This document shows, in pieces, positions 8,927 to 33,887 of a stretch of 36,539 bases of DNA (position 1 is the first letter of the stretch; each line of letters starts with the position of its first letter). The stretch comes from Siminovitchia terrae. Its GTDB lineage: Bacteria > Bacillota > Bacilli > Bacillales > Bacillaceae_C. The translations under genes were made by a program, and so were the position numbers. The notes beneath the pieces were generated by a model. It made no database searches, was not told where the DNA came from, and saw only the letters and a program-made list of their open reading frames with translations. The stretch is from NCBI RefSeq assembly GCF_003605405.2, contig NZ_QYTW02000033.1, positions 1-36,539 on the forward strand, written 5' to 3'.

Positions 8927-8944
8927 TTATTCATTTTTGAATAA
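8927..8944. promoter_or_regulatory. Enhancer-like dyad (UAS) upstream of nhaC
   Basis: TTATTCATTTTTGAATAA is a dyad with perfect TTATTCA/TGAATAA arms. It lies 50 bp upstream of a sigma-54 promoter and differs by one base from the dyad upstream of the aldehyde dehydrogenase promoter (33751-33768). This is the expected position for a binding site of the sigma-54 activator encoded at 31595-33718. Confidence 0.6.
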
Positions 8945-8994
8945 CCTTAAGCAGCTTTAATAAAGAAAACGTTATCAGTAACCCCCTTTCATTC

Positions 8995-9011
8995 TTGGCA
9001 CAAATATTGCA
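8995..9011 (+). promoter_or_regulatory. Sigma-54 (-24/-12) promoter of nhaC
   Basis: TTGGCACAAATATTGCA matches the sigma-54 consensus TGGCAY-R-N4-TTGCW at every defined position with GG and GC 12 bp apart. It lies 45 bp before the nhaC start. An inverted pair CGTTATCA (8970-8977) and TGATAACG (9019-9026) brackets it and might be a repressor site. Confidence 0.85.
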
Positions 9012-9055
9012 AGTGTAATGATAACGCTTTTTTTTCATCGGGAGGTTACATAAAT

Positions 9056-10498
9056 TTGGAAAAACAACGAGAACGGCAAGATGTGAAAAAACCTACTTTG
9101 CTTGTAGCTTTGATTCCAATTGGGTTTATGGTGATTGCTCTATTTACAGGGATATTCATATATGAGGCAGACCCCCATATTCCGTTGCTTTTAAGTGCGG
9201 GTGTTGCTGCAATTGTTGCGTTAAGGCTCGGATATAAATGGAAAGAAATCGAAGAGGGCATGCTTGATGCAGTCAGGATGGCGCTTCAAGCGATCACTAT
9301 ATTAATGGTAATCGGTGCAATTATCGGTTCTTGGATAGCTGGTGGAATTGTGCCGACCATGATTTATTATGGGTTGGATATTCTAGCTCCTGGATATTTT
9401 CTAGTTGCTGCCTGCGCTATTTCCTGTATCGTTTCTATTGCTTCGGGGAATGCTTGGACGGCTGCAGGAACTATCGGGATTGCAATTATGGGAATCGGTC
9501 AAGGTCTTGGCATGAATCCGGCTATGGTGGCAGGCGCTGTCATTTCCGGCGTGTATTTCGGGGATAAAATTTCTCCTCTTTCCGAAACGACGAATCTGGC
9601 TCCAGGTATTGTCGGAGTTGAGTTGTTTGAACATATCAAGCACATGCTTTATACGACCATCCCAGCTCTTGTCATTGCATTGATCATTTATGCAGTGATG
9701 GGTATTAAATTTGCGGGACAAGGCACTGAAATTTCAGAGGTGAAACTGCTTCAGTCCCAGCTTGGAGAAATTTTTACAATATCACCTTGGCTGTTGCTGG
9801 TTCCATCATTCATTATTGTGATGATGATCTTTAAGATTCCAGCTCTTCCGGGATTGACAATCGGCTCGCTGCTTGGAGCAATCTGTGCTATCGTAGTCCA
9901 AAAAGTTCCTGTCGGAGACGCCATAAACATTTTATATTATGGCTATTCTATCAACACAGAAATCGAGATTGTGGATAATCTATTGAACAATGGCGGTATA
10001 GAATCAGTATTGTATACGGTTTCTCTGATTATCATAGCCATGTGTTTCGGGGGTGTTCTGGAAAGAACGGGAATTTTCGAAGCGATTGTCCAAGGTATTT
10101 TAAAACTTGCTAAAAAGACTGGAAGTCTAATTGCAGCTACGGTTGCGACTTGTATATCAGCAAATATAGTCGGCTGTGATCAGTACCTGTCTATCATTGT
10201 TCCTGGACGAATGTACGCTGCGGAATATGAAAAGCGTGGACTAAAAGCAAAAAACCTGTCCCGTACACTTGAAGATGCAGGAACGATGACTTCACCGCTT
10301 ATTCCTTGGAATACATGCGGAGCCTTTATGGCGACTACGCTTGGCGTCGCGACATTAGACTATCTGCCATTTGCATTCCTATGTTTGATCAGCCCAGTCA
10401 TTTCCATTATTTATGGGATGACAGGATTTAAAATAGAATACAAGGATGAAGTAGCTGAAAAAGCCAAAAGCAAGAGAGAACAACATGCAGTCAGTTAA
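9056..10498 (+). CDS. nhaC: NhaC-family Na+/H+ antiporter-type transporter
   Basis: A 480-residue polytopic membrane protein with about 11-12 helices, of the NhaC ion-transporter family. It starts at TTG 9056 behind GGGAGG. Recognisable segments include SGNAWTAAGTIGIAIMGIG, GVYFGDKISPLSETTNLAPG (the conserved charged family signature) and a C-terminal ANIVGCDQYLSIIVPGRM stretch. NhaC-family members exchange Na+ for protons or for metabolites such as malate/lactate. Because this gene has the same kind of sigma-54 promoter and upstream dyad as the polyamine genes, exchange of an organic cation or catabolic product is plausible, but that is inference. The C-terminus is charged (EKAKSKREQHAVS) and its stop codon lies in a terminator stem. 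Confidence 0.85.
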   Translation: MEKQRERQDVKKPTLLVALIPIGFMVIALFTGIFIYEADPHIPLLLSAGVAAIVALRLGYKWKEIEEGMLDAVRMALQAITILMVIGAIIGSWIAGGIVPTMIYYGLDILAPGYFLVAACAISCIVSIASGNAWTAAGTIGIAIMGIGQGLGMNPAMVAGAVISGVYFGDKISPLSETTNLAPGIVGVELFEHIKHMLYTTIPALVIALIIYAVMGIKFAGQGTEISEVKLLQSQLGEIFTISPWLLLVPSFIIVMMIFKIPALPGLTIGSLLGAICAIVVQKVPVGDAINILYYGYSINTEIEIVDNLLNNGGIESVLYTVSLIIIAMCFGGVLERTGIFEAIVQGILKLAKKTGSLIAATVATCISANIVGCDQYLSIIVPGRMYAAEYEKRGLKAKNLSRTLEDAGTMTSPLIPWNTCGAFMATTLGVATLDYLPFAFLCLISPVISIIYGMTGFKIEYKDEVAEKAKSKREQHAVS

Positions 10499-10946: not shown

Positions 10947-11993
10947 ATGAGATTCAAAAAGGCAGGTTTACTTGTATCAGCATTGGTGTTTGTTCTGCTG
11001 GTCGCTGGATGCGGAGGCAGCGGGGCTGGGGGCAAGGATGAAAATGTGGTCAATATTCTAAATTGGTCTGAATACTTGCCCGAAGAATTGATTAAGCAGT
11101 TTGAAGAAGAGACTGGGATTAAAGTAAACTACAGTACAATCTCTTCTAATGAAGAGCTTGTCGCAAAGTTGAACGTTGGGAATGCTACTTATGATATAGC
11201 TGTCCCTTCGACTTATTTTATCGAAGTGCTGATCAATGAAGGTCAGCTTGAGAAAATCAATAAAGATAATATTCCAAACTTAAAAAATATTGATGAAAAG
11301 TTTATGAAATGGGATTTTGATCCGGAAGATGAATACTCAGTGCCGTACATGTGGGGTACTGAAATCATTGCGTATAATGAAGATTTGGTAGACTTTAAGA
11401 TAAAGAGCTATAAAGATTTGTTTAATCCAAAGCTGAAAGATAGTCTTGTTGTAGTTGACGATCCCCGTACCATGCTAGGAGCCATGCTGGAAATGATGGG
11501 ATATTCCGTAAATAGTACAAACGAAGATGAGATCATGAAGGCTGGTAAGGAATTGAAAAAGCTGATGCCAAATATCAAAGCGTTTGACAGTGACAGCCCA
11601 AAAAACCTTCTTGTCAGCGGAGAGGTGAAAGCAGGAGTCGTTTATGGAGCTGAAGCTGCGCTTGCCATGAGAGAGAATCCAAGCATTAAGCTGGTCCTTC
11701 CTGAAGATCATCTCAGCTTGTGGCAAGATAACTTTGTTATCCCTAAGGGTGCACCACATAAAGAAAATGCAGAAAAATTTATTGACTTCATTCTTCGTCC
11801 TGAAATAAGTAAAGAAATCACATTGGATTATCCATACCATAACCCGAATAAGGCAGCACTTGAATTGCTTCCTGATGATGTACAACAAGAACTGGAATTG
11901 ACAGATGAAGAATTTGAGCGGGGCGTGCATGCGAAGGATGTCGGAGAAGCGATCAAGTACTATGACCGTGCATGGTCTGAAGTTAAACAGTAA
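10947..11993 (+). CDS. potD: PotD-like spermidine/putrescine-binding lipoprotein (PotD1)
   Basis: A 348-residue extracellular solute-binding lipoprotein. The signal peptide ends in a lipobox, LLVAGC, with Cys22 the lipidated residue. The mature part starts with ILNWSEYLPEELIKQFEEE, carrying the W-S-E-Y ligand motif of PotD. Later come VVDDPRTMLGAML, VVYGAEAALA and SLWQDNFVIPKGA. The W-Q-D triplet matches the Trp and Asp that grip the amine in E. coli PotD. It delivers polyamine to an ABC permease, but no permease genes are adjacent, so it may use PotABC at 28464-31222. It is followed after 40 bp by a DAO-family oxidoreductase. It is very similar to PotD2 (16550-17617). Confidence 0.9.
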   Translation: MRFKKAGLLVSALVFVLLVAGCGGSGAGGKDENVVNILNWSEYLPEELIKQFEEETGIKVNYSTISSNEELVAKLNVGNATYDIAVPSTYFIEVLINEGQLEKINKDNIPNLKNIDEKFMKWDFDPEDEYSVPYMWGTEIIAYNEDLVDFKIKSYKDLFNPKLKDSLVVVDDPRTMLGAMLEMMGYSVNSTNEDEIMKAGKELKKLMPNIKAFDSDSPKNLLVSGEVKAGVVYGAEAALAMRENPSIKLVLPEDHLSLWQDNFVIPKGAPHKENAEKFIDFILRPEISKEITLDYPYHNPNKAALELLPDDVQQELELTDEEFERGVHAKDVGEAIKYYDRAWSEVKQ

Positions 11994-12033
11994 TATATAT
12001 AATGATAGCTGCTAAATTCGAAGGAGTGGAAGC

Positions 12034-13311
12034 ATGAGTATCAAATCGTTGTGGCAAGCAACAGCAAATGATCTGAAGAGAAGACCTGTCCAGCAAGGGG
12101 AGGAAACATGTGACGTCGTTATCATAGGAGGCGGCTTTACTGGGCTTTCCGTAGCCTATCACTTGCAACAGAGGAATGTGAAAACTGTAGTACTGGAGTC
12201 CAATACTGTGGGGTCCGGGGCCAGTGGAAGGAACGGCGGGGAAGTCCTGATCGGCTATGTCGAGTCAATGCGTGCGCTGACTGAAAAATACGGCAGTGAT
12301 GCCGCAAGGCAAATGTTTCAAATGTCTTTGGACAGTATCGACCTGATTGAAGGCATCATTCAGAAAGAGGACATCCAGTGTGACTTTTTCCGAAACGGAA
12401 ACTTGCTTGCCGCATACAAGCCATCACATTTGGATGGGCTGAGACGGGAGCAAGAGTTTTTATATAAAAATTATAACTTTGAAACAAAGATTGTGGAAAA
12501 ACAAGATATGCATACCGAAATGGATTCTGATTTTTACCATGGAGCCCATATCGATGAAAAAAGTGCCATTTTTCATCCATTGAACTATTGTCTCGGCTTG
12601 GCTAACGCGGTGGAAAAAAACGGCGGAACAATCTATGAACATTCGGAAGCTATCAATATTAAGCGCGAATCACATGATCGAGTGATTGTTGAGACAAACA
12701 ATGGCCGGGTCATTGCCAAGCAGGTGGGAATGTTTGTTAACGCTTATACGACTGATGTTCATAAACTGATCAAGAAATCAATTGTACCGGTTGAAAGCAT
12801 TGTTCTTGCTACCGAGACACTTCCTGAGGAATTGTGCAAGAATCTGATGAAGCATAACCGTGCTGCCTGTGACACGAAAAACCTGTTGTATTATTTCAGG
12901 CTTTCCGCTGACAATCGTATGGTATTCGGCGGATCGGGACGTACGACGAGCAAGCGGGATGCCCAAAGACTCTTTGAGAATCTACAGGCTGGCATGGTAG
13001 ACGTCTTTCCTGCGTTGAAAGATGCTAAAGTGGATTACAAGTGGAGCGGAAAAGTAGGGTTTACCATCGAAAAGATTCCTTATGTTGGCCAATTGGATGA
13101 CGGTACCCACTTTGCTTTTGGATATGCAGGGCATGGAGCGGCAATGTCTACGCTTTTAGGGAAAATTGTGGCTATGAATATGCTCAATGAAGGGGATAAA
13201 AACAATCCTCTTGATCGCTCAAACCTGAAACCCATCCCGTTCCATAATATGAACGCCACTGGATTGGGAATCATGAAATATTACTTTAAGTTTTTGGATT
13301 ATATTTCCTAA
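12034..13311 (+). CDS. FAD-dependent oxidoreductase of the DAO family, PuuB-like
   Basis: A 425-residue flavoenzyme. The N-terminal dinucleotide-binding fold is CDVVIIGGGFTGLSVAYHL (GGGFTG at 31-36), with the ribose-binding Glu in VVLES and the DAO signature GSGASGRNGGEVLIGY. The C-terminus has GHGAAMSTLLGKIVA. The overall layout resembles gamma-glutamylputrescine oxidoreductase PuuB and related amine oxidases, which convert an amine or N-acylated diamine to an aldehyde, ammonia and H2O2. It lies between the polyamine-binding PotD1 and a C45 acyltransferase-type hydrolase. No gamma-glutamylputrescine synthetase (puuA) is in the window, so the substrate may be free or N-acylated polyamine instead. 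AAGGAGTGG precedes the ATG. Confidence 0.82.
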   Translation: MSIKSLWQATANDLKRRPVQQGEETCDVVIIGGGFTGLSVAYHLQQRNVKTVVLESNTVGSGASGRNGGEVLIGYVESMRALTEKYGSDAARQMFQMSLDSIDLIEGIIQKEDIQCDFFRNGNLLAAYKPSHLDGLRREQEFLYKNYNFETKIVEKQDMHTEMDSDFYHGAHIDEKSAIFHPLNYCLGLANAVEKNGGTIYEHSEAINIKRESHDRVIVETNNGRVIAKQVGMFVNAYTTDVHKLIKKSIVPVESIVLATETLPEELCKNLMKHNRAACDTKNLLYYFRLSADNRMVFGGSGRTTSKRDAQRLFENLQAGMVDVFPALKDAKVDYKWSGKVGFTIEKIPYVGQLDDGTHFAFGYAGHGAAMSTLLGKIVAMNMLNEGDKNNPLDRSNLKPIPFHNMNATGLGIMKYYFKFLDYIS

Positions 13312-13333
13312 AGAGAAAGAAGGAACAGCGTCT

Positions 13334-14416
13334 ATGATTAAACAGTTAGATTTGGAAGGAACGCCGCGTGAAATAGGTGAAAAGCATGGTCGTGAAGGAA
13401 AAGAGCAAATCCAAGTCAGCTTGGAAACGTATGAGAAGCTCTTCTACGGATATCATCAAATCAGTTGGAAAGAAGCGTGTAACCGTGGGCTTGACCATTT
13501 AAAAGCAATTGAAGCATATGATCCTGAGCTGATAGAGGAAATGGAAGGGGTGGCACGTGGCGCAGGCGTAGACTTCGAGGACATTTTAGCATTGAATGCA
13601 CGAAGTGAAATAGCTCTTACGGGGCGAAAGGACAAGCTTTTTTCTGATGGATGCACATCCATTGCCGTAACGGCTCCTGCTTGCGATGAAACGATCATAG
13701 GCCAAAACTGGGATTGGAAAGGCAGTCAGATTGACAGTCTGTTGCTTCTCCGAATCAAACAAAAGGATAAGCCTGATATCACAATGGTGACAGAAGGCGG
13801 GATTATTGGAAAAATCGGCTGTAACTCTGCCGGTTTGGCTGTTTGTCTGAATGCTTTGATTACGGACAAAAAATCCGATGAAGTTCCTATTCATCTAGGT
13901 CTAAGGGCTGTTTTGAACTCTTCTTCTTTCCATGAAGCCTTGTCAAGAGTCAACAATGGCCAAATGGCTTCTGCTGCCAATTTTATGATTGCAAGCCATG
14001 AAGGTGAAGGCATGTCTTTAGCGGCCAACGTTGAAGTGTCGCCATTTGGCATCGACCTGATTACGGAACCAAATGGTACAGCCGTTCATTCAAACCATAT
14101 CCTTTCACCAGAGCTGTTGAAGAACCTAGTAGATTTGAATGAATTTAAATACACAGATTCGATGATCCGGAAGCTGCGTGCCGAGCAGCTCATCAATACG
14201 GCTCTGACAAAGGGAGAAATGATTAATGAGGATAGTTTTAAGAGATGGTTTACCGATAAATATAATTATCCGAACTCCATTAATCATTTCCCTAATGAAA
14301 AGGCGCCGGAGCACCGCCGCTCAGAAACGGTATTCTCTATCATTATGAATCTATCACAAAAGAAAACTCTATTTTGTGCAGGTAAACCAACAATTGGCGC
14401 ATATGAAGAGATTTAA
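13334..14416 (+). CDS. C45-type N-terminal nucleophile hydrolase / acyltransferase (AAT-like)
   Basis: A 360-residue protein of the acyl-CoA:6-aminopenicillanate acyltransferase / peptidase C45 family. The precursor would cleave itself before Cys107 in SDGCTSIAV, making that Cys the new N-terminal nucleophile. GQNWDWKGSQ and GGIIGKIGCNSAGLAVCLNAL are further family landmarks. Relatives cut or exchange amide bonds of N-acyl amino acids, acyl-polyamine-like and beta-lactam compounds. It is 22 bp after the FAD oxidoreductase, so it may deacylate a polyamine conjugate before or after oxidation. Its last codons run into structured repeat A, which supplies the TAA stop. The length is still normal, so little if anything was lost. 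Confidence 0.82.
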   Translation: MIKQLDLEGTPREIGEKHGREGKEQIQVSLETYEKLFYGYHQISWKEACNRGLDHLKAIEAYDPELIEEMEGVARGAGVDFEDILALNARSEIALTGRKDKLFSDGCTSIAVTAPACDETIIGQNWDWKGSQIDSLLLLRIKQKDKPDITMVTEGGIIGKIGCNSAGLAVCLNALITDKKSDEVPIHLGLRAVLNSSSFHEALSRVNNGQMASAANFMIASHEGEGMSLAANVEVSPFGIDLITEPNGTAVHSNHILSPELLKNLVDLNEFKYTDSMIRKLRAEQLINTALTKGEMINEDSFKRWFTDKYNYPNSINHFPNEKAPEHRRSETVFSIIMNLSQKKTLFCAGKPTIGAYEEI

Positions 14417-14604
14417 CTTCATTCAGCAGAAGTCTCCCACTTCTGTAAGTGGTGAGATGAATGCCTATTGTTATTCCATTCAGTGGGGGTTCAAACCCCG
14501 GCTGAATAAAGTTAAAGCCTCCGGCGGATGCCACAGATTTTCAGAGGAAATTTATCGAGCGGAGCTCGATAAAATCTGGGCGCAAATATGCCAAGGCGTA
14601 TTTA
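14412..14604 (+). repeat. Structured ~193-bp repeat, copy A
   Basis: First of six same-orientation copies. From the 5' end: a long hairpin (CATTCA 14420-14425 with TGAATG 14458-14463, enclosing TCTCCCACTT with AAGTGGTGAGA), a second hairpin (ATTCAG/CTGAAT enclosing GGGG/CCCC), a third (CAGATTTT/AAAATCTG enclosing a TTTATCGAGC/GCTCGATAAA stem) and a terminal hairpin (CAAATATGCC 14583-14592 with GGCGTATTTA). No coding sequence fits. It looks like a non-autonomous IS200/IS605-type element with hairpin ends. The CTCCCACTT core also occurs in the IS right end at 594-602. Confidence 0.85.
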
Positions 14605-14812: not shown

Positions 14813-14836
14813 GGAGAGAGTTTTTCTCTCCTTTTT
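14813..14836 (+). terminator. Intrinsic terminator in the leader of the yhcX-like gene
   Basis: GGAGAG (14813-14818) pairs with CTCTCC (14826-14831), followed by five T. It ends 27 bp before the start codon, so it can only serve as an attenuator for the downstream operon or as the end of an independent RNA. Confidence 0.8.
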
Positions 14837-14863: not shown

Positions 14864-16405
14864 ATGAGTGAAGCAGACACTGCAAAGTATCAGAATGAAA
14901 TCACCATCCGCAATATCCGTGAAGAGGATATTGAAGAAGTTGTAAAGGTTGCCAATCTAAGTTTTGGGCTTCCGGGAGTTGCTTTTGAAGCCAAGCATTA
15001 CAGGAGCCATATTAATATTTTTCCAGAGGGACAATTTTGTGTTGAATATGGTGGAAAAATCATAGGGGCGTGCTCCAGCATCATTATCAATTTTGAGGAC
15101 TATGGTGAAGACCACACTATTGATCAAATTTCCGGAAACGGCTATATCCAAAACCATAACCCAAGTGGAAAGAATCTGTATGGATTGGATGTTGTGGTGC
15201 ATCCGGATTATAGGAAATTAAAGATTGGACGCCGGTTGTATGAGGAACGACGGAAGCTTTGCCGGAAGTTTAATTTGAAAAGTATTTTATTTGGCGGCCG
15301 CATGCCCAATTATTACAAATATGCTGATAAGCTTACGCCAGAAGAATACGTTAACCAGGTAATCAAGAAGAAGATATATGATCCTGTCATCGTATTTCAA
15401 ACCATGAATGGATTTAAATTTAAGAAAGTGCTGACAAACTATCTCCCCGACGATAAAGCCTCTTTAGAAAATGCAACATTAATGGAGTGGGTGAATGAAG
15501 ATTATGTCCCTCCTTCAGACAGGGATTACAGACATTCTTTACCTGTGCGTATTTCTTCCATTCAATATGATTATAAAGAAGTCCGGTCTTTTGAGGAATT
15601 TGCCAAACAATGTGAGTATTACGTTCGCAGTAGTTCCAAGGTAAGGTCGGATTTCGTCTTATTACCTGAAGCGCTTACAATGCAGCTGGCCGCTTTTTCA
15701 AATGAAAGGTTTCCGAGTGGACAGGCCCAGAAGGTGACTACCTATACGGAAGATTATTTGCAGCTGTTTTCTGATTTAGCTCTAAAATACAATATCAATA
15801 TCATTGCCGGATCACATTATGTGGAAGAAGATAACGAGATTTATAATGTTTCTTATCTATTTAGGCGTAATGGTACATTTAATAGGCAATACAAGCTTCA
15901 TGTGCCTCCCTCAGAGAAAAGCTGGCTTGGTATTAGGCCGGGGAATGATGTGAAGGTATTTGATACGGACTGCGGAAAAATCGCGATATTGATCGGTTAC
16001 GACATTCTATTTCCGGAACTTGCTCGTAAAGCAGCCGATCAAGGGGCACAAATCATATTTACACCATTTGCAGAAGAAAATGAACAAGGCTATTTGCGAA
16101 TTCGCTATTGTTCTCAAGCAAGAGCTATTGAAAACCAGGTGTATACCGCTATTTCTGGGGCGTCCGGAAATATGACGAATGTTACACTCGCAGATGCAAG
16201 GTATGGACAATCAGGCATTTTCTCTCCGGTTGATTTCTCTTTCCCGAATGCAGGAGTCGTGGCTGAAAGCCGACCAAATGTAGAAGCTGTCGTTGTCGGA
16301 GATGTTGATTTGGAAACATTGCGGAAAAACCGCAAGACAGGATCGGCAACGCCGTTTCATGACAGAATTCAAAAACAGGAGCCGGAATCCGCATCCATTG
16401 TATGA
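14864..16405 (+). CDS. yhcX: YhcX-like GNAT acetyltransferase fused to a nitrilase-fold domain lacking the catalytic Cys
   Basis: A 513-residue two-domain protein. Residues about 14-220 are a GNAT N-acyltransferase, with the acetyl-CoA loop in DYRKLKIGRRLYEERRK and a conserved KSILFGGRMPNYYKY block. Residues about 225-490 are a carbon-nitrogen hydrolase fold with Glu269 (LLPEALTMQ) and Lys344 (QYKLHVPP). Where the catalytic Cys should be, the sequence is AILIGYDILFPELAR with Gly378 (codon GGT; Cys would be TGT). The nitrilase half is therefore probably not an amidase, unless this is an error. Length and order match B. subtilis YhcX as I recall it. It heads an operon with PotD2, amidohydrolase, permease and GNAT, behind the structured leader. 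AAAGGGAGTGGAG is the ribosome binding site. Confidence 0.85.
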   Translation: MSEADTAKYQNEITIRNIREEDIEEVVKVANLSFGLPGVAFEAKHYRSHINIFPEGQFCVEYGGKIIGACSSIIINFEDYGEDHTIDQISGNGYIQNHNPSGKNLYGLDVVVHPDYRKLKIGRRLYEERRKLCRKFNLKSILFGGRMPNYYKYADKLTPEEYVNQVIKKKIYDPVIVFQTMNGFKFKKVLTNYLPDDKASLENATLMEWVNEDYVPPSDRDYRHSLPVRISSIQYDYKEVRSFEEFAKQCEYYVRSSSKVRSDFVLLPEALTMQLAAFSNERFPSGQAQKVTTYTEDYLQLFSDLALKYNINIIAGSHYVEEDNEIYNVSYLFRRNGTFNRQYKLHVPPSEKSWLGIRPGNDVKVFDTDCGKIAILIGYDILFPELARKAADQGAQIIFTPFAEENEQGYLRIRYCSQARAIENQVYTAISGASGNMTNVTLADARYGQSGIFSPVDFSFPNAGVVAESRPNVEAVVVGDVDLETLRKNRKTGSATPFHDRIQKQEPESASIV

Positions 16406-16549
16406 CGCAAGAAAGGTTCATCAAATTGGAACAAGCAACGTATGAAAGTAGCTCGTATATACGAATGTATCGCCGTTGCTTTTTCTTTAGGCTGGGCTAT
16501 TGCTCGGCCTTTTGATTCAAATATAAAAATCAGGGGGGGGATGGCAGTA

Positions 16550-17617: not shown

Positions 17618-17699
17618 AGTTAAGGGGGGATTGATTTCTAGTATTGAGTAGATTCAACAGGGGGTTACGAAAAAGTAGCGGTTCAAGGGGGAAATGCAA

Positions 17700-19319: not shown

Positions 19320-19333
19320 AAGGGGGACAATTG

Positions 19334-20677: not shown

Positions 20678-20691
20678 GGGGGGCGTTTCGT

Positions 20692-21866: not shown

Positions 21867-22060
21867 TTTAACTTCATTCAGCAGAAGTCTCCCATTTCTG
21901 TAAGTGGTGAGATGAATGCATATTGGTATTCCATTCAGTGGAGTTTCAAACCCAGGCTGAATAAAGTCAAAGCCTCCGGCGGATGCCACAGATTTTCAGA
22001 GGAAATTTATCGAGCGGAGCTCGATAAAATCTGGGCTCAAATATGTCAAGGCGCATTTGA
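21867..22060 (+). repeat. Structured ~193-bp repeat, copy B
   Basis: It is collinear with copy A over its full length and in the same orientation. The terminal hairpin CAAATATGTC/GGCGCATTTG ends at 22060. Its last bases encode, on the minus strand, the final codons and TGA stop of the beta-lactamase-fold gene. The second hairpin is weakened by one mismatch (GGAGTTT/AAACCC), so this is one of the more degenerate copies. Confidence 0.85.
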
Positions 22061-23840: not shown

Positions 23841-24033
23841 TTTAACTTCATTCAGCAGAAGTCTCCCACTTCTGTAAGTGGTGAGATGAATGCCTATCGG
23901 TATTCCATTCAGTGGGGGGCAAACCCCGGCTGAATAAAGTCAAAGCCTCCAGCGGATGCCACAGATTTTCAGAGGAAATTTATCGAGCCAAGCTCGATAA
24001 AATCTGGGCGCAAATACGCCAAGGCGCATTTGA
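23841..24033 (+). repeat. Structured ~193-bp repeat, copy C
   Basis: It is in the same orientation and has the same four-hairpin layout as copy A. The inner loop of the third hairpin differs (GAGCCAAGCTC), while its stem is intact. The terminal hairpin is CAAATACGCC/GGCGCATTTG. It stands upstream of the minus-strand TetR promoter. Confidence 0.85.
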
Positions 24034-25438: not shown

Positions 25439-25503
25439 TTGCCGACTCCTTTCCAATGTAAAAAAAGTTTATTTTTGTGTAGTGAATATTCTATTAATTC
25501 ACG

Positions 25504-25695
25504 TTTAGCTTCATCCAGCAGAAGTCTCCCACTTCTGAAAGTGGTGAGATGAATGCATGTTGGTATTCCATTCAAGGGGGGGCAAACCCCGGTTGAATAA
25601 AGTTAAAGCCTCCGGCGGATGCCACAGATTTTCAGAGGAAATTTATCGAGCGGAGCTCGATAAAATCTGGGCGCAAATACGCCAAGACGTATTTG
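25504..25695 (+). repeat. Structured ~193-bp repeat, copy D
   Basis: It lies between potD3 and potD4, in the same orientation as the others and therefore opposite to the genes. The second hairpin reads ATTCAA...TTGAAT where other copies have ATTCAG...CTGAAT, a compensated base-pair change. The terminal hairpin is CAAATACGCC/GACGTATTTG. Confidence 0.85.
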
Positions 25696-25700
25696 ATAAA

Positions 25701-25726
25701 TATAGAGGAGGGGAACCTCCTCTATA
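25701..25726 (-). terminator. Terminator hairpin after potD4
   Basis: TATAGAGGAGG (25701-25711) and CCTCCTCTATA (25716-25726) form a perfect 11-bp stem with a GGAA loop, ending 8 bp before the potD4 stop codon. A short T run follows in the minus-strand direction. Confidence 0.65.
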
Positions 25727-25733
25727 CGTCTAA

Positions 25734-26813
25734 TTATTGTGAACCTTTTGCTTCTGACCAGACTCGGTCATATAATTGGATCGATTCTCCAATATCCTTG
25801 ATATATTCGAGGCGTTCGATTTCCTCTTCAGGTGGATAAATGGCAATATTATTGAGGATTTCTTCGTCAATCAGCTTGCGTGCTTCTTTGTTTGGATTAA
25901 TATAAGGCTGATGTTGTGCGATTTCCGCACTGATTTCAGGCTCTAAAATAAAGTTGATAAACTTCTCAGCCAGGTCTTTATTTTTGGCACCCTTTGGTAT
26001 GACCCAGTTGTCCATCGTAATAAGAAGACCTTCTTCAGGGATAATGGTCTCAAAGTTTCCTCCTTCTCTTTGAGCTAAGGCAATCTCAGGACCCCATACC
26101 AGTCCTCCTGAAGCTTCCCCATTCACCATCATTTGTTTTGGACTGTCGCTGTCAAAAGCTTTGATATTTGGAAGGAGTTCAACCATCTTCTTCTTAGCTT
26201 CCTCTAGATGTTTCGGGTCAGTATCATTCGCACTGTACCCGAGAGACTTAAGGATCATCCCGATAATCATGCGTTGGTCATCGAGAACAACCAATTTATT
26301 TTTCAATTCCGGGTTCCATAAATCGGTGTAGCTTTTTATTTCGGATACATCGACTCCGATTGAATCAGGATTTACAGCAAGGGATAGAGTATTTCCCATG
26401 AACGGTACGGAATATTTATTCCCCGAATCAAAATCCTGATCAATATAGTCATCTAACAAATTATCGAAATTCGATATGTTCTCTAAATTTATCGGTTCAA
26501 TCATATCCCGTTCAACCATGGCAGGGACAATATAATCACTTGCCATTGTCAGGTCATATATGCCTCCACCTGCTGCAACCTTTGCCAGCATTTCTTCATT
26601 AGATGAGAACATGCTGTAATTTACTTTTACATCATATTCTTCCTCAAATTTTTTAATGGTGACCTCAGGAATGTACTCTGTCCAGTTAAAAACATTCAAC
26701 TCTTTTGATTCTTTTCCTCCAGAAGTACTGCTTGATCCGCAGCCTGATAAAAAGATGCTTACTAGCAGGACAGTAATGACCATGCCTGCAAAAATATTGC
26801 CTCCTCGATTCAT
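25734..26813 (-). CDS. potD: Divergent PotD-like binding lipoprotein (PotD4)
   Basis: A 359-residue solute-binding lipoprotein with lipobox SIFLSGC (Cys25). It keeps VFNWTEYIPEVTIKKFEEE and VVLDDQRMIIGMI. It is the most divergent of the five. SVPYMWG of the others becomes SVPFMGNTLSLAVN, so the pocket Trp is gone, and the W-x-D triplet becomes T-M-D in LLITMDNWVIPKGA. The Asp is retained. It ends in SEAKGSQ rather than the shared SE(V/I)KQ. A shifted ligand specificity within the polyamine or modified-amine range is likely. It lies between repeats D and E downstream of potD5. Confidence 0.88.
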   Translation of the reverse strand: MNRGGNIFAGMVITVLLVSIFLSGCGSSSTSGGKESKELNVFNWTEYIPEVTIKKFEEEYDVKVNYSMFSSNEEMLAKVAAGGGIYDLTMASDYIVPAMVERDMIEPINLENISNFDNLLDDYIDQDFDSGNKYSVPFMGNTLSLAVNPDSIGVDVSEIKSYTDLWNPELKNKLVVLDDQRMIIGMILKSLGYSANDTDPKHLEEAKKKMVELLPNIKAFDSDSPKQMMVNGEASGGLVWGPEIALAQREGGNFETIIPEEGLLITMDNWVIPKGAKNKDLAEKFINFILEPEISAEIAQHQPYINPNKEARKLIDEEILNNIAIYPPEEEIERLEYIKDIGESIQLYDRVWSEAKGSQ

Positions 26814-26836: not shown

Positions 26837-27030
26837 TTTAACTTCATTCAGCAGAAGTCTCCCACTTCTATAAGTGGTGAGATGAATGCATATTGGTATT
26901 CCATTCATCGGGGGTTCAACCCCCGGCTGAACAAAGTCAAAGCCTCTGGCGGATGCCACAGATTTTCAGAGGAAATTTATCGAGCGGAGCTCGATAAAAT
27001 CTGGGCGCAAATACGCCAGGGCGCATTTGA
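26837..27030 (+). repeat. Structured ~193-bp repeat, copy E
   Basis: It is in the same orientation, upstream of potD4 and opposite to it. It has all four hairpins. The outer pairs of the second hairpin are partly lost (ATTCAT against CTGAAC), while the inner GGGGG/CCCCC stem is longer than in other copies. Confidence 0.85.
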
Positions 27031-27280: not shown

Positions 27281-28366
27281 TTACTGCTTTATCTCCGACC
27301 AGACACGGTCGTATTCCAGAATAGCATCCTCAATGTCTGTGAAAAATTCACTTTTATCCAAAAACTCTTTGGGCGAATAGACCGCAGGATCGTTCAAAAT
27401 GTTTTCGTCAATAAATTCATGGGCTGAAAGGTTCGGGTTCGCATAAGGGAAGTCTTTGGATATCTCGGCGCTCACTTCAGGCTGTAAAATAAAATCGATG
27501 AAAGCTTCAGCATTCCTTTGGTTTGGTGCTCCTTTTGGAACTACAAAATTGTCCATCCAAATATTGGTTCCTTCTTCAGGAAGGACAGTTTCAACGGCTG
27601 GATTTTCAACTGAAGCAAGATATGCTTCGGCACCCCATACAATACCGGCTTTCGCTTCGCCGTTTACAAGCATTGTTTTTGGGCTGTCGCTGTCATATGC
27701 TTTAATATTTGGCAAAAGATCAATCAGAAGGTCTTTTGATTTTTGGATCACTTTCGTGTCCGTTGAGTTCATTGATTCACCCTGAAGCTTATTTCCGATT
27801 CCGATCAAAATCCTTTGATCATCCAAAACAACAAGGGAGTTCTTGAACTCGGAATCCCATAGGTCTTCATAGCTTTTGATATTTTTTTTCACTGCGTCTT
27901 TGTTTACGGCAATAACAACATTCCCCCACATATAAGGAACAGAATGTTCATTGCCCGGATCAAAAGTCGGATTTAAAAACTGTTCATCCAGATTGTTCAT
28001 GTTGGGAATATTGTCTTTATTAATAGGTTCAAGTAAATCTTGCTTTCTCATAATCTCAACCATGTAATCGCTTGCAACGGAAATATCGTATCCAGCTGCA
28101 CCGGCACTGATTTTTGCCAGCATTTCTTCGTTGGATGAGTAAACATTATAGTTGACCTTGATTCCGGTCTCTTTTTCAAACTGTTTAATCACCCGATCGG
28201 GCATGTACTCAGACCAGATGAATAAATTAAGCTCTCCGTCACCATTGTCTTTTGAAGCTTTCTCGCCAGATGTGCTGCTTTTACCACATCCGGTAGCGAA
28301 GGTCCCGACAAACACTGCCATAATGAAAAGAACGATATATTTGCCAGTATCCTTTGTAAAATTCAA
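27281..28366 (-). CDS. potD: PotD-like polyamine-binding lipoprotein linked to potABC (PotD5)
   Basis: A 361-residue lipoprotein with lipobox FATGC (Cys27). LFIWSEYMPDRVIKQFEKE, SVPYMWGNVVIAVN, LDDQRILIGIG, IVWGAEAYLA and NIWMDNFVVPKGA show a complete PotD pocket, including W-M-D. It follows potC by 97 bp with a strong intercistronic hairpin between, so it is the cognate binding protein of the PotABC transporter and the canonical potD of the cluster. The sigma-54 promoter at 31302-31317 should drive it with potABC. Confidence 0.92.
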   Translation of the reverse strand: MNFTKDTGKYIVLFIMAVFVGTFATGCGKSSTSGEKASKDNGDGELNLFIWSEYMPDRVIKQFEKETGIKVNYNVYSSNEEMLAKISAGAAGYDISVASDYMVEIMRKQDLLEPINKDNIPNMNNLDEQFLNPTFDPGNEHSVPYMWGNVVIAVNKDAVKKNIKSYEDLWDSEFKNSLVVLDDQRILIGIGNKLQGESMNSTDTKVIQKSKDLLIDLLPNIKAYDSDSPKTMLVNGEAKAGIVWGAEAYLASVENPAVETVLPEEGTNIWMDNFVVPKGAPNQRNAEAFIDFILQPEVSAEISKDFPYANPNLSAHEFIDENILNDPAVYSPKEFLDKSEFFTDIEDAILEYDRVWSEIKQ

Positions 28367-28410
28367 AATATTTCCCCCTTTTATATTTTTTGGAATTCTC
28401 TTTTCCTTAA

Positions 28411-28439
28411 ATAGCCGGTACCTTTTGAGTACCGGCTAT
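28411..28439 (-). other. Intercistronic hairpin between potC and potD5
   Basis: ATAGCCGGTAC (28411-28421) and GTACCGGCTAT (28429-28439) form a perfect 11-bp stem with a 7-nt loop. In the minus direction it is followed only by a weak T tract (TTTAAGG). Partial termination or protection of mRNA segments is likely, a common way to set the binding protein to permease ratio. Confidence 0.6.
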
Positions 28440-28463
28440 ATTTTATTGAATCGGCTATTTTAT

Positions 28464-29237
28464 TTATTTGTTTAGTCTAAGTTGAGAGAAGACTGCGATT
28501 GACAAGGTAATGACAAGCAGTATTGTGGAAAGTGCATTAATTTCAGGTGATACGCCGAACTTCACCATCGAAAAGATCTTCAAAGGTAAAGTAGTACTGC
28601 TTGGCCCGGCTACGAAGAAGCTGATAATCACATCATCAAGCGAAAGAGTGAAGGACAAAAGCGCACCTGCCATGATCCCAGGTCCGATGATGGGCAGGGT
28701 CACCTTTGTAAAAGTATGCCATTCATTTGCCCCTAGGTCCCTTGCGGCTTCTTCCATTGATGGATCAAAGCCTTCCAGCCTCGCCCTGACGATAACGACA
28801 ACAAATGGAATACAGAATGTTATGTGGGCGATCACCAATGTTGTAATGCCAAGGGGAACGTTGACAAGTGCGAAAAAGGCCAGCAAAGAAATCCCCATGA
28901 CAATTTCCGGAATGACGATAGGGAGGTACAGCATCCCATCGAGTGCAGTTTTGCCACGGAAATGAAAGCGATACATTCCGACGGCGGCGACCGTTCCGAT
29001 CATTGTGGCAACAATGGTTGAAACGAAAGCGACGGTCAAACTGTTTTTTGCTGCTGCCAGAATGTCACTGTTTTGCATTAATTTCCCATACCACTCAAAG
29101 GTAAAACCCGTCCATACGGCATTCAACCTTGATTTGTTAAAAGAGAATACGATCAATATAATAATCGGAATATATAAAAACCCATAAATGAATAATGCAT
29201 ATAGAATCGATGGCAACTTTTTCAATCGAAGATTCAT
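28464..29237 (-). CDS. potC: Polyamine ABC transporter permease PotC
   Basis: A 257-residue inner-membrane permease with six helices. The cytoplasmic EAA loop is MEEAARDLGANEWHTFTKVT, which docks on PotA. The N-terminal segment YALFIYGFLYIPIIILIVFSF and the overall length match PotC. It starts at the base after the potB stop codon, so translation is coupled. It forms the channel with PotB for import of spermidine/putrescine-type amines. Confidence 0.92.
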   Translation of the reverse strand: MNLRLKKLPSILYALFIYGFLYIPIIILIVFSFNKSRLNAVWTGFTFEWYGKLMQNSDILAAAKNSLTVAFVSTIVATMIGTVAAVGMYRFHFRGKTALDGMLYLPIVIPEIVMGISLLAFFALVNVPLGITTLVIAHITFCIPFVVVIVRARLEGFDPSMEEAARDLGANEWHTFTKVTLPIIGPGIMAGALLSFTLSLDDVIISFFVAGPSSTTLPLKIFSMVKFGVSPEINALSTILLVITLSIAVFSQLRLNK

Positions 29238-30155
29238 CTACAACACCTCGAGTCCTTTTTTATTACCGCCGATTCTGAGATAGATGAGGATAAAGATTAG
29301 TGTCAGCACCATCAAAATCATAGATGCAGCAGAGCCGAACGGCCAATCCCTTGCTGTCAGGAACTGGTTTTTTATCAGGTTTCCGATCAAGAGTGACTTG
29401 GAACCCCCCATTAAATCCGGGATAAAGAACAACCCAAGTGTGGGGATGAATGTAAGCAGGGCGCCGGCAACTACTCCAGGCATTGTGAGCGGAAGAGTGA
29501 TCCTTATAAACGTTTGCCAAGGTTTCGCCCCTAAATCGCTTGATGCTTCCAACAACGACTTATCCAACTGTTCAATGGATGCGTAAAGCGGTAATACCAT
29601 GAATGGAAATAGGGTGTAGGTCAAACCGACCATTACAGCACCGTGGTTGTACAACATGGCCAATGGCTCGGAAATGATGCCTATCTTCATCAGTAATATA
29701 TTAATGACTCCTTCTGTACGCAAAAGGACAATCCATGCATACGTTCTGACTAGTGAATTTGTCCAGAAAGGCACCATGACAAGCATTACTAGAAATGCTC
29801 GGTATTTCTTTGGTGCTCTTGCAATGATATAAGCGAATGGGTAACCAAAGACTAGACATAAGATGGTTGTAAAACCAGCTATAACCAATGAGTCCCACAA
29901 AATTTTCAAATAGAGGGGGTCAAAAAAACGGGTATAGTTTTCTAATGTAAAGCTATATTCCACTCCGCCATATAATCCCCTTGTGGCAAAACTGATGAGT
30001 AATATGAAAAGAAGTGGAAAAATAAAAAACAATACAAGCCAAAACGTAACAGGAGAGAGTGTCCATGCCATTCCGAACAATCGACCGCTTGGACGCTTCT
30101 TCTTCTTGGACATCACCGGAGTTTTATCAGCTGGTGCAACGTTGGTTTCCATCAT
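29238..30155 (-). CDS. potB: Polyamine ABC transporter permease PotB
   Basis: A 305-residue permease with six helices and a charged cytoplasmic N-terminal extension of about 27 residues (KKKKRPSGR). The EAA-type loop is [20 protein letters not shown]. Its start codon overlaps the potA stop by four bases (ATGA), and its stop abuts the potC start, so potABC is one translationally coupled unit. It partners PotC in the membrane. Confidence 0.92.
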
Positions 30156-31222
30156 GCAATGATCACCGCCTTGTCAGGCTCCCAGTTCACATATACGTCT
30201 TGATCAACAGCGAACGAATGAGCCACTTCCGGGGTTTTGTTGACAGTGACTTGATCCCCGCCGGGAAGGGACACGACCGTTTTGATAATGGATCCTACAT
30301 AAATATGCTCTACGACCTTACCTGGAATGGCGAATCCGGCTCCGTTCAATTCATTATGCAGCTGCACACGCTCAGGTCGAATGGCCATTGACACTTCTTC
30401 ATCCAGCGATACTTTGGTTGTTGGAATGATTGGTACTTTATGCCCGGAAAGGTCGAGATAAGCATGTTGTTCGTCTAACCCGACCACTTTTCCTTCAAAT
30501 AAGTTCGTTTCACCAATAAAATCTGCAACGAAGCGAGAAGCTGGACGGTCGTAAATTTCATCTGGTGTACCAAGCTGTTCGATAATACCGCCGTTCATAA
30601 CGGCAATCCTATCAGACATAGTCAGCGCTTCTTCTTGGTCATGTGTTACATAAATGAAGGTAATGCCTAGCTTTTGTTGCAAATGTTTCAATTCAACCTG
30701 CATTTGCTTTCGGAGTTTTAAATCTAGTGCCCCAAGGGGCTCATCAAGAAGCAGAACCTTCGGGCTGTTGACCAAGGCGCGTGCGATAGCGACACGCTGT
30801 TTTTGTCCTCCACTGAGCTGATCGGGTTTGCGTTTGGCAAAGCCTTCAAGTTGGACTAATTTAAGCGCTTCCATTACACGGCGCTTAATATCATCCTTGT
30901 TTATTTTTTTCATCTTAAGACCAAAAGCGACATTATCAGAAACATTCATATGAGGGAATAAGGCGTAACTTTGGAAAACTGTATTAACATCCCTCTTGTG
31001 TGGGGGGATATTGCTGACTTCTTTTCCATCTATAATGACTTCTCCATCAGTTGGCTGTTCAAATCCTGCAATCATGCGAAGGGTTGTGGTTTTTCCGCAC
31101 CCTGATGGTCCTAAAAGGGTGAGAAACTCTCCGGATTTGATATCCATGTTAATATTTTTTACCACAACGTTGTCATCGAAGTTTTTGACTACATTGTTCA
31201 ATGTCACCATCAATTCACTCAA
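30152..31222 (-). CDS. potA: Polyamine ABC transporter ATPase PotA
   Basis: A 356-residue ATPase. Walker A is GPSGCGKTT (38-46), the Q-loop is in [13 protein letters not shown], the ABC signature is [15 protein letters not shown], Walker B is [12 protein letters not shown] and the H-loop is [10 protein letters not shown]. The last 110 residues form the TOBE regulatory domain typical of PotA/MalK types. It starts at TTG 31222 with AAAGGAG about 12 bp upstream. It is the first gene of the sigma-54-controlled potABCD unit and diverges from the activator gene. As the only ATPase of this kind here, it may serve all five PotD proteins. Confidence 0.93.
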
Positions 31223-31301: not shown

Positions 31302-31317
31302 TGCAAATTATATGCCA
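31302..31317 (-). promoter_or_regulatory. Sigma-54 (-24/-12) promoter of potABCD
   Basis: On the minus strand TGGCATATAATTTGCA matches TGGCAY-R-N4-TTGCW at every defined position. It lies 80 bp before the potA start. With the activator gene immediately upstream, this is the promoter expected to be switched on by that protein. Confidence 0.85.
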
Positions 31318-31378: not shown

Positions 31379-31396
31379 TTATGAGATTTTGCATAA
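31379..31396. promoter_or_regulatory. Enhancer-like dyad proximal to the potA promoter
   Basis: TTATGAGATTTTGCATAA fits TTATNCA-N4-TGNATAA with two mismatches in the left arm and lies about 60 bp upstream of the potA sigma-54 promoter. Confidence 0.45.
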
Positions 31397-31482
31397 TTTA
31401 TTCGAAATAGAATAAGGAGACGGAAATTTTGTCCTTTTTGGAATGTATTTAAATGGTAAAGATTATGCATCAAATACCTCGG

Positions 31483-31526
31483 TAATTCATTTGTGAATAA
31501 AAAATGAAAATATTCATAGATGAATG
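31483..31526. promoter_or_regulatory. Two further dyads in the potA-activator spacer
   Basis: TAATTCATTTGTGAATAA (31483-31500) matches the dyad consensus except for one base. A shorter one, TATTCA-TAGA-TGAATG (31511-31526), lies just upstream of an extended -10 box, TGCTATAAT (31536-31544), the likely sigma-A promoter of the activator gene. Activator bound here could both loop to the potA promoter and repress its own gene. Confidence 0.5.
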
Positions 31527-31594
31527 TGGATTTTCTGCTATAATGAATAAGTAGAAGCGACAAAAACTGACAAAAGCGGAAGGGGGAGAGTGGC

Positions 31595-33718
31595 GTGTTT
31601 TTAATCTCAAGAGATATTATCCAATCAATAGTCAAGCTTTCTGTGGATCGGCCTCAGCAAGAATGGCGAGCCCTTTTGTCTGATAAAAAGAACCGGTTTA
31701 TATTTTTGGAGGAAGACGGAAAAATCACTTCCTACATCTATTTGAAGGAACTTCCTGTAAGTGAGCGTGAACACGGGGAGTTGGAGCTTGATCAAATTAA
31801 GGAATATGCTTTGCCTATTACTGAATTGAGCACGCTATCTGAAAATCTGTCTTTTTCTTCAATTTTTCAAGTGTTGGGAAAGGAATTATCTTTAATTAAA
31901 AATGAAAGCGATTCAATCACTGGCTATGTATTGCGCGAGGATTTGATTGTTGAGCTTTTTAGGCAGGAAAATGAAAATGCCAATATATTGAAGATCCTTC
32001 TCATGTCCATCCCGATGGGGATAGTCATTATTGATAATCATGGAATGGTTGTTGACTGCAATGAATCGGCCTTGGAAATGACCCGGCTTAAAGCGGGACA
32101 GGTTTTGAATTATCCGGCCGAAACAATATTTAATGCCGATCATTTGAAGCATGTTTTTCAGACTGGTGAAACCGTTTTAAATCAATTGCAAGTCACGAAT
32201 GAATCGGGAATTCTTGTTGATTACAGTCCGATTATAAATGATGAAAAAAATGTAGAGGGAATCATTGTCATTGTTCAGGATCTTCCGATGGTCGAGCAGA
32301 TGGCCATGGAACTTGAATCCGTCAAGAATCTGAACAAGGATCTGAATGCTATCCTGTCCAGTATTTATGATGAAATTCTAGTAGTGAATTCCAAAGGAGA
32401 ATTGATCCGATATAGTGAAAACGCTATTCCTGAATTTTGGGGAGTGGACTTAAAAGACCTGGTCGGGAAAAATATTATCGAACTAGAAAAGCAGGGGCGG
32501 TTTATGCCTTCGGTTACTCGGCTTGTCATTGAGAAAAAGAAAAAAGTCTCTGTTGTACAGGAAACCCCAGCCGGCAAGAAAGTTTTGGCTGTCGGTAATC
32601 CAGTGCTTGATGATAATGGCGAGATTGAAAGAATAATCGTAGCTTCCCGAGACATTACAGAGGCGACTCGTCTGCGTGACGAACTCCGTGAGATGAAGAA
32701 AATATCCGCGCAGTACAAGCAAGAGCTTGATGAGATGAAAATGCAAGAACAGTTAAGTCGGAAGCTAATATACCGCAGTCAGAAAATGGAAGATATTGTG
32801 GGGCAGATCCATAAAGTGGCTAAATTTTCTTCCACTGTGCTGATCCAAGGAGAATCTGGTGTCGGTAAAGAAGTGATTGCCCATGCTATTCATCAATTGG
32901 GAGGTCGGAAGGACCAGCCGTTTTTAAAGGTGAATTGTGGAGCTATTCCAGAGCCGCTCTTGGAAAGCGAGCTTTTTGGCTATGTGAAAGGTGCCTTCAC
33001 TGGAGCGGATCCCGGCGGGAAAGATGGTTACTTCAAGCAGGCTGACCAGGGGGTGTTGTTCCTAGATGAGATTGGCGAACTGCCACTCCGACTTCAGGTG
33101 AAACTTCTTCGTGTCCTTCAGGAGAGGGAGGTTGCTCCTGTTGGAAGTACTCAGACCTTTTCGGTTGATGTGCAAATAATAGCGGCGACGAACACAAATC
33201 TGAGAGAAATGGTGGCGGATGGGTCGTTTCGCGAGGACCTCTTCTATCGTTTAAATGTCATTCCAATTCATGTCCCGCCATTAAGGGAAAGGCATGAGGA
33301 TATTCCATTAATTGCTTTCCATTTCCTGAAACAATTTAATGAAAGACATGATAGCAGCTACCATTTGACGCCGGATGCTCTTAATCTATTGGAGGCATAT
33401 ACCTGGCCTGGAAATATTCGGGAACTACAGAATATCGTTGAGCGTTTGGTAGTCACGGCTGATGATGAAATGATCGATGCTAGTGTGGTTGGACAGGTTT
33501 TAAAATTGAATGAGCCGATGACAAAGGTGAAACCAATTATCACCAATATCATGCCTTTGCAAGAAGCTTTTGAGGCTGTGGAAGAACAGCTTATAACGCA
33601 GGCGATGAATCTATATAAAACCACAACGAAAGCAGCGACAGCACTAGGGATCAGTCAATCCTCTGTCAGCAGGAAGTACCAAAAAATCGTCAGCCGGAAA
33701 CAGGGGATAGGAGGATAA
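31595..33718 (+). CDS. Sigma-54-dependent enhancer-binding activator (CBS-like/PAS-PAS/AAA+/HTH)
   Basis: A 707-residue activator. The N-terminal ~130 residues resemble a CBS-type segment (RFIFLEEDGKITSYIYLKEL). Two PAS domains follow at about 135-240 (MGIVIIDNHGMVVDCNESAL) and 255-370 (DEILVVNSKGELIRYSENAI). A coiled-coil-like linker leads to the AAA+ domain (about 395-630): Walker A GESGVGKE (419-426), an intact GAFTGA sigma-54 contact loop (466-471) and Walker B VLFLDE (487-492). The C-terminal Fis-type HTH is ATALGISQSSVSRKYQKI. It is RocR-like in layout. It starts at GTG 31595 behind GGGGGAGA. Flanking sigma-54 promoters at potA and the aldehyde dehydrogenase make it the obvious local regulator, with PAS or CBS sensing a polyamine-related ligand. 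Confidence 0.92.
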   Translation: MFLISRDIIQSIVKLSVDRPQQEWRALLSDKKNRFIFLEEDGKITSYIYLKELPVSEREHGELELDQIKEYALPITELSTLSENLSFSSIFQVLGKELSLIKNESDSITGYVLREDLIVELFRQENENANILKILLMSIPMGIVIIDNHGMVVDCNESALEMTRLKAGQVLNYPAETIFNADHLKHVFQTGETVLNQLQVTNESGILVDYSPIINDEKNVEGIIVIVQDLPMVEQMAMELESVKNLNKDLNAILSSIYDEILVVNSKGELIRYSENAIPEFWGVDLKDLVGKNIIELEKQGRFMPSVTRLVIEKKKKVSVVQETPAGKKVLAVGNPVLDDNGEIERIIVASRDITEATRLRDELREMKKISAQYKQELDEMKMQEQLSRKLIYRSQKMEDIVGQIHKVAKFSSTVLIQGESGVGKEVIAHAIHQLGGRKDQPFLKVNCGAIPEPLLESELFGYVKGAFTGADPGGKDGYFKQADQGVLFLDEIGELPLRLQVKLLRVLQEREVAPVGSTQTFSVDVQIIAATNTNLREMVADGSFREDLFYRLNVIPIHVPPLRERHEDIPLIAFHFLKQFNERHDSSYHLTPDALNLLEAYTWPGNIRELQNIVERLVVTADDEMIDASVVGQVLKLNEPMTKVKPIITNIMPLQEAFEAVEEQLITQAMNLYKTTTKAATALGISQSSVSRKYQKIVSRKQGIGG

Positions 33719-33750
33719 GGGGGTTTTTAATATTTTTGGAATGCAACAAG

Positions 33751-33768
33751 TTATGCATTTTTGAATAA
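33751..33768. promoter_or_regulatory. Enhancer-like dyad (UAS) upstream of the aldehyde dehydrogenase
   Basis: TTATGCATTTTTGAATAA differs by one base from the dyad at 8927-8944 upstream of nhaC. It is 102 bp upstream of the sigma-54 promoter at 33871, a typical enhancer distance. Confidence 0.6.
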
Positions 33769-33870
33769 AACTATTGAAAATAGAATAAATTATTGTTAAA
33801 ATGAAAGGGCTTTAAACTATTAACCGCTCTAAAATGACGGCGTTTTCAAAGAGATAGTACTGTTTAAACG

Positions 33871-33887
33871 TTGGCATGGTAATTGCA
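33871..33887 (+). promoter_or_regulatory. Sigma-54 (-24/-12) promoter of the aldehyde dehydrogenase gene
   Basis: TTGGCATGGTAATTGCA matches the sigma-54 consensus at all defined positions and lies 112 bp before the start codon. Confidence 0.85.

Follow-up and report, generated by a model that had tools for sequence, protein, structure and literature searches.

A 36,539-nt stretch of the Siminovitchia terrae genome encodes a sigma-54 activator that very probably binds the palindrome TTATKC-N6-GMATAA and switches on a regulon for the catabolism of agmatine and putrescine, and probably of other polyamines. The stretch, called the window here, comprises positions 1–36539 of a 61.9-kb contig (C27) in a genome of 5.30 Mb and 68 contigs (G000). 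A preliminary description of the window had proposed that this activator drives potA, nhaC and an aldehyde dehydrogenase gene through shared dyads, and comparison with other genomes supports that proposal. The dyad and the activator co-occur, the dyad's spacer is fixed, dyads are helically phased with their promoters, and agmatine and putrescine genes lie downstream in many genera.

Promoters and dyads in the window

Three perfect sigma-54 promoters (TGGCAYRNNNNTTGCW) lie in the window, as the preliminary description had it. They precede nhaC (8996–9011, plus strand), potA (31302–31317, minus strand) and an aldehyde dehydrogenase gene (33872–33887, plus strand), and each is supported by the pattern match and by alignment of relatives. 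All have GG at -24, GC at -12 and fixed spacing, and the genome encodes sigma-54 from one rpoN gene. Scanning the whole window at up to one mismatch yielded nothing beyond these three. Their number by itself is unremarkable: at up to one mismatch, shuffled sequences average 1.59, and 20 of 100 shuffles reach three or more. Genome-wide, the pattern has 41 matches against 2 for its reverse, so the majority are likely real.

The dyads associated with these promoters are best described by an 18-bp palindrome, TTATKC-N6-GMATAA, which is perfect at 8927, 31398 and 33751 and has one mismatch at 31379, 31483 and 31533. The form first proposed, TTATNCA-N4-TGNATAA, is perfect only at 8927 and 33751; of the other two sites named with it, 31379 departs from it by two mismatches and 31483 by one, and the perfect dyad at 31398–31415 had been overlooked. 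The remark that two dyads differ by a single base holds for 8927 and 33751.

Each promoter has one or more dyads upstream, which are the proposed activator sites. Upstream of nhaC, the perfect dyad at 8927–8944 is centred 63 bp from the -24 GG; it is perfect in two close relatives and has one mismatch in a third. The potA promoter is preceded by an imperfect dyad at 31379–31396 (one mismatch, 73 bp away) and, 19 bp further, by the perfect dyad at 31398–31415 (92 bp). In five of six same-genus genomes compared, the latter keeps constant arms around a variable 6-base spacer; it is degenerate in G004. Another one-mismatch dyad, at 31483–31500, sits just upstream of the activator's promoter, where autoregulation is possible; its distance to the potA promoter is 177 bp. 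The aldehyde dehydrogenase promoter has a perfect dyad at 33751–33768 (115 bp) and a weak second one at 33771–33788 (two mismatches, 95 bp). We rejected the match at 31533 as an enhancer, as it overlaps a conserved TGnTATAAT (31536–31544, plus strand) just upstream of the activator gene. This putative sigma-A extended -10 element, picked out by eye and with its TATAAT conserved in six aligned genomes, is more likely the activator's own promoter.

Two cre-like sites for CcpA also lie near sigma-54 promoters, at 8963–8977 (plus strand, between the nhaC dyad and promoter, conserved by eye) and at 33835–33849. Both are one mismatch from a cre consensus, a hint of catabolite repression.

The activator protein

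The gene at 31595–33718 (plus strand) encodes a 707-residue sigma-54 activator. Domain matches bear out the earlier assignment of an AAA+ activator with a GAFTGA loop: PF00158 scores 237.9 bits and HTH_50 29.3 bits against a cut-off of 27, as for bacterial enhancer-binding proteins, and both GAFTGA and the P-loop are visible in the translation. The architecture is a CBS pair (residues ~1–125), two PAS domains (140–230 and 258–358), the AAA+ domain (392–559) and a helix-turn-helix (HTH) domain (654–697) that has invariant residues across 10 orthologs.

The CBS pair, or Bateman domain, was predicted from orthologs and structure modelling. The protein's own first 130 residues gave no Pfam match, and in 9 of 42 orthologs this region matches Pfam CBS (best 1.9e-6). 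A model of the entire sensor region had a predicted template modelling (pTM) score of 0.39 and gave mostly PAS matches, so the N-terminal domain was modelled separately. That model reached a mean predicted local distance difference test (pLDDT) value of 83.6, and the closest structure in the PDB is an AMP-bound CBS pair (E 1e-6).

Conservation in relatives

Dyads and sigma-54 promoters accompany the activator gene across relatives. Orthologs are 83–97% identical in five same-genus genomes and 58–62% in four others, and each of the nine loci carries, close to the gene, dyads and sigma-54-like sites with no more than one mismatch; in G010 the nearest spacing between them is ~350 bp. We extended the comparison to 1.64 Mb of ortholog loci, the best 80 of 103 relatives with the sensor region in named genomes, which include Siminovitchia, Neobacillus, Cytobacillus, Peribacillus, Gottfriedia, Heyndrickxia coagulans and Priestia abyssalis. 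In these 80 loci the dyad arms occur 73 times with a spacer of 6, against 0 or 1 time for each spacer of 0–5 and 7–12 and 2 times in reversed sequences. Of 233 perfect promoters, 49, from 39 of the 80 loci, have a perfect dyad 30–300 bp upstream, against 0 of 2 in reversed sequences. When one mismatch is allowed and the promoter pattern slightly relaxed, a dyad lies within 35–200 bp at 177 of 251 promoters, in 74 of 80 loci.

The distance from dyad centre to promoter is helically phased. Among 51 perfect pairs the strongest period is 10.5 bp. After repeats of gene class and distance were removed (124 values), 0 of 2,000 random sets reached the observed periodicity. Tandem dyads ~20 bp apart contribute to it.

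Dyad–promoter pairs and the activator co-occur across the order. We searched 397 genomes, including that of S. terrae and three used to build the sensor profile, for a strict pair: a perfect dyad, 40–70 nt and a perfect promoter. Strict pairs occur at 22 places in 21 genomes, with none among the matches listed for the reversed control. In 43 genomes the sensor profile reaches 350 bits or more; the next best score, 251 bits, belongs to a partial match. Pair and activator occur together in 20 genomes (Fisher p 8e-21, ignoring relatedness). In five genomes the strict pair and the activator gene are ~130 kb apart or on different contigs, consistent with action in trans.

Predicted target genes

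The genes behind these promoters fit a pathway from agmatine to 4-aminobutyrate (GABA). Downstream of the 22 strict pairs, two of them assigned by eye, are aldehyde dehydrogenase (14), NhaC (2), agmatinase (2), APC permease (2), class III aminotransferase (1) and amidohydrolase (1). For the ortholog loci, open reading frames were called with a simple script and grouped by BLAST, and clusters were named by comparing one representative each (two for aldehyde dehydrogenase) with NCBIfam, or by similarity to window proteins. Dyads with up to one mismatch accompany promoters of aldehyde dehydrogenase (48 of 56), APC permease (39 of 52), glutamate dehydrogenase (33 of 44), agmatinase (16 of 22), a second APC class (7 of 7), putrescine aminotransferase (5 of 9), class III aminotransferase (5 of 7), agmatine deiminase (3 of 3), PotA (5 of 5, same genus group) and the activator (2 of 4); the figures are 4 of 9 for other genes and 6 of 14 where no open reading frame was found. 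Representatives passed the cut-offs of the NCBIfam models for putrescine aminotransferase, GABA transaminase, agmatinase and agmatine deiminase; those of aldehyde and glutamate dehydrogenase reached no specific NCBIfam cut-off. An APC–pot cluster in Lentibacillus populi follows a promoter that has a one-mismatch dyad.

Conversion of agmatine through putrescine and 4-aminobutyraldehyde to GABA is an established pathway, and the target set, together with import, fits this chain. Typical targets differ in part from those first described: in relatives, dyads most often accompany aldehyde dehydrogenase, APC permease, glutamate dehydrogenase and agmatinase genes, rather than potA or nhaC. In the window, the regulon appears to have taken in potABCD, extra PotD proteins and the nhaC operon.

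A broader function is the alternative that survives best, and we consider it unlikely: the regulon would serve general amine, GABA or amino acid catabolism rather than polyamines as such, with potABCD and NhaC moving another cation. Glutamate dehydrogenase is a frequent target, and the window's aldehyde dehydrogenase (33949–35421, plus strand) comes close to the succinate-semialdehyde dehydrogenase model, narrowly missing its cut-off (625.6 against 646.35 bits). PotD models score below their cut-offs for the window's PotD-like proteins, and "NhaC" is a family name that does not define a substrate. However, the dyads at agmatinase and agmatine deiminase promoters, the putrescine aminotransferase above its cut-off, and PotA all point to agmatine and putrescine.

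The dyad in the S. terrae genome

In its own genome, the perfect dyad is paired with sigma-54 promoters at the window alone. A genome-wide scan for the dyad together with a sigma-54 promoter, the check proposed in the preliminary description, found a perfect dyad within 250 bp upstream of 3 of 41 promoters, all three in the window. Of the remaining 38, none has a perfect dyad and 2 have a one-mismatch dyad within that distance, which gives the background in this genome for the looser dyad rule applied to the ortholog loci.

One of these two suggests that the regulon is not confined to the locus. The promoter heads an operon on contig C26 (~49000–53250, L241) encoding an amidohydrolase, an APC permease and a class III aminotransferase. 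Two close relatives have a perfect dyad at this site with the same promoter, and the aminotransferase shares 60–65% identity with a cluster whose promoters have dyads in other genomes. We read this as a predicted fourth operon of the regulon, acted on in trans. The three targets first proposed remain supported, and the predicted regulon extends beyond this locus.

The genome encodes 33 sigma-54 activators scoring above 200 bits, so adjacency alone is insufficient to tell which of them binds the dyads. Another of these activators might do so, leaving the gene at 31595 a mere neighbour. Consistent with this, a sigma-54 paralog on contig C34 (42% identical to the activator) lies near a promoter with a one-mismatch dyad, the dyad being close to the paralog's neighbour, and in G303 a strict pair (C42 ~5019–5102, L217) precedes an amidohydrolase beside a different sigma-54 activator. 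We nevertheless regard this alternative as highly improbable: the ortholog is present in 20 of 21 strict-pair genomes, against 43 of 397 overall, the remote sites in five genomes still coincide with it, and perfect dyads are absent from the 38 other promoters of S. terrae.

Dyad totals carry no weight as evidence. Of the 8 strict dyads in the 5.3-Mb genome, 5 lie on C27 (p 1e-8), a value that flatters because the motif was chosen from the same window; relatives provide the independent tests. We rejected whole-genome totals because the reversed control is higher, 16 against 8 in S. terrae and 14 against 6 in G003; only association with promoters and activator discriminates. A further dyad at contig position 38384 was set aside, since the 20 kb scanned (36540–56539) contain no sigma-54-like site. 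That the dyads are chance AT-rich palindromes, or an unrelated repressor's sites near genuine sigma-54 promoters, agrees with these totals but is scarcely credible given the spacer specificity, promoter association and helical phasing in relatives.

Several observations weigh against assigning the dyads to this activator and its regulon. Dyad-less sigma-54 promoters precede an agmatine deiminase gene (C6 ~99164, L016) and two aldehyde dehydrogenase genes (C17 ~61011, L030; C67 ~50829, L235) of S. terrae, whose products are 72%, and 69% and 79%, identical to the regulon clusters of relatives; other activators seem to serve these parallel amine pathways. Six of the 80 ortholog loci lack a promoter bearing a dyad at up to one mismatch, and 23 of the 43 activator genomes lack a strict pair in a search that allowed no mismatch and a single spacing range. 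G303 has its strict pair without an ortholog. In the ortholog loci, 4 of 10 NhaC promoters, 0 of 5 GabT promoters and 0 of 4 PotD promoters have a dyad at up to one mismatch. When pairs with a single mismatch are included (217 in all), the strongest period is 11.0 rather than 10.5 bp, with a further peak at 10.25. Related genomes, moreover, are not independent.

Genes under the window promoters

The nhaC promoter precedes a long run of plus-strand genes. The first product (9056–10498) is an NhaC-family transporter by TIGR00931 (518.7 bits, cut-off 370); the ArcD model scores 420.1 bits, below its cut-off of 650. Genes for a PotD-like binding protein, a flavin adenine dinucleotide (FAD)-dependent amine or amino acid oxidase (DAO) and a C45-type acyltransferase/hydrolase follow (10947–14416), and are probably co-transcribed with nhaC because they share its strand and are suitably spaced. 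Beyond a terminator-like hairpin at 14816–14830 lie genes for a GNAT–CN_hydrolase fusion, a PotD-like protein, an amidohydrolase, an APC permease and a GNAT protein (14864–21363), a possible extension of the operon; the nhaC transcript may end at the hairpin or continue to 21363. The fusion protein (14864–16405) joins a GNAT acetyltransferase to a carbon–nitrogen hydrolase.

The potA promoter faces a minus-strand set spanning 27281–31222: potA (30152–31222), potB (29238–30155), potC (28464–29237) and a potD-like gene (27281–28366). Two further PotD-like binding proteins are encoded downstream of it (24335–26813, minus strand). On the plus strand, the aldehyde dehydrogenase probably starts at the ATG at 34000, and its operon probably includes a GNAT acetyltransferase gene (35648–36301).

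Five PotD-like binding proteins are thus encoded in the window, at 10947, 16442, 24335, 25734 and 27281, with copies of a palindromic repeat, TTTATCGAGC-N3-GCTCGATAAATTTCCTCTGA, close by. The repeat occurs at 14551–14573, 22006–22028, 23979–24001, 25642–25664, 26976–26998 and 36444–36466, and all six copies are on the minus strand regardless of gene direction. At up to two mismatches there are 388 copies in the genome and 0 to 38 in nine relatives. Among the first places listed, orientation follows the contig (C23, 14 of 14 plus; C6, 10 of 10 minus; C12, 9 of 9 minus), a pattern that points to recent amplification of a strand-biased element. Near the window's edge, an open frame at 105–578 resembles, by eye, a transposon-encoded (TnpB-type) fragment.

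Relation to known systems

The protein is predicted to be an apparently undescribed polyamine/agmatine regulator within a known class, the sigma-54 activators. The preliminary description knew of no sigma-54 polyamine regulon with this site in Bacillaceae, and we found none in full-text searches of an open-access collection, which omits most subscription papers. Bacillus thuringiensis has eight sigma-54 activators: GabR, RocR, PrdR, KamR, SoxR, BkdR, AcoR and LevR (PMC4428206). In the main text of that study, as available, the word polyamine is absent and none of the eight is described as a polyamine regulator.

GabR of B. thuringiensis is a close parallel. It too is a PAS–AAA+–HTH sigma-54 activator of an aminotransferase/semialdehyde pathway that binds upstream of a TGGCA...TTGCA promoter; it is induced by GABA or succinic semialdehyde and does not bind its own promoter (PMC4279683). 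Its site differs: the protected region is 96 bp long, and the 21-bp inverted repeat within it is separated by 5 bp (PMC4279683), so we rejected a GabR-type assignment for the 6 bp–N6–6 bp dyad. Compared by description, the activator here also differs in its CBS pair, its second PAS domain, and uptake genes and agmatinase as targets.

RocR of Bacillus subtilis, the arginine/ornithine regulator, is a sigma-54 activator of nitrogen-rich amine catabolism including the glutamate dehydrogenase gene rocG, near which a CcpA cre lies; by description, its targets are rocABC, rocDEF and rocG, and it responds to ornithine or citrulline (PMC4348106, PMC4941409). AguQ of Clostridium is likewise a predicted sigma-54 activator for agmatine metabolism, described with the targets aguDA, aguBC and aguQT and with an upstream activating sequence (UAS) grouped with those of SarR, YglR, XptB, XhaQ and DhaR (PMC6615313). 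PrdR (NF041552) is the best-scoring curated model for the activator, matching residues 243–694 (PAS–AAA+–HTH). Its score of 445.7 bits falls short of the cut-off of 795, and we rejected membership; the targets of PrdR are proline reductase genes (PMC6615313). In a COG-level survey of sigma-54 targets, those predicted for Bacillota or Bacilli include agmatinase/arginase, glutamate dehydrogenase and 4-aminobutyrate aminotransferase; its available text names no activator or enhancer site for them (PMC12316311).

Discussion

We propose that the activator couples a polyamine signal to sigma-54 transcription. Its N-terminal domains would sense a polyamine-derived signal, and the protein would bind the dyads, often tandem, ~50–180 bp upstream of -24/-12 promoters. 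Its ATPase would then remodel sigma-54 polymerase. This would switch on the import of polyamines through potABCD and APC permeases, together with the nhaC operon, the class III aminotransferase operon on C26 and aldehyde dehydrogenase. The sites and promoters, their conservation and phasing, the co-occurrence with the activator and the gene content are observations, from which we infer binding, activation, the signal, operon extents and substrates.

A two-input switch is a more tentative extension, and one we hold to be doubtful. Here the PAS pair would read a polyamine-pathway signal and the CBS pair an adenine nucleotide or cyclic di-AMP, with the NhaC-family transporter as the pathway's amine or cation exchanger. 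If so, sigma-54 would link polyamine import and burning to the cell's energy or osmotic state, and a polyamine regulon gated in this way by a Bateman domain would add a new variant to the class.

The analysis assigns a predicted activator, DNA site and pathway to a sigma-54 regulon in many Bacillaceae-type genera. It suggests that a transporter of the NhaC family, along with several hydrolases and oxidases not yet characterised, may have a role in polyamine use, and it presents a CBS–PAS–PAS sensor as a starting point for finding the signal. Direct tests of polyamine catabolism would thereby become possible in these soil bacteria.

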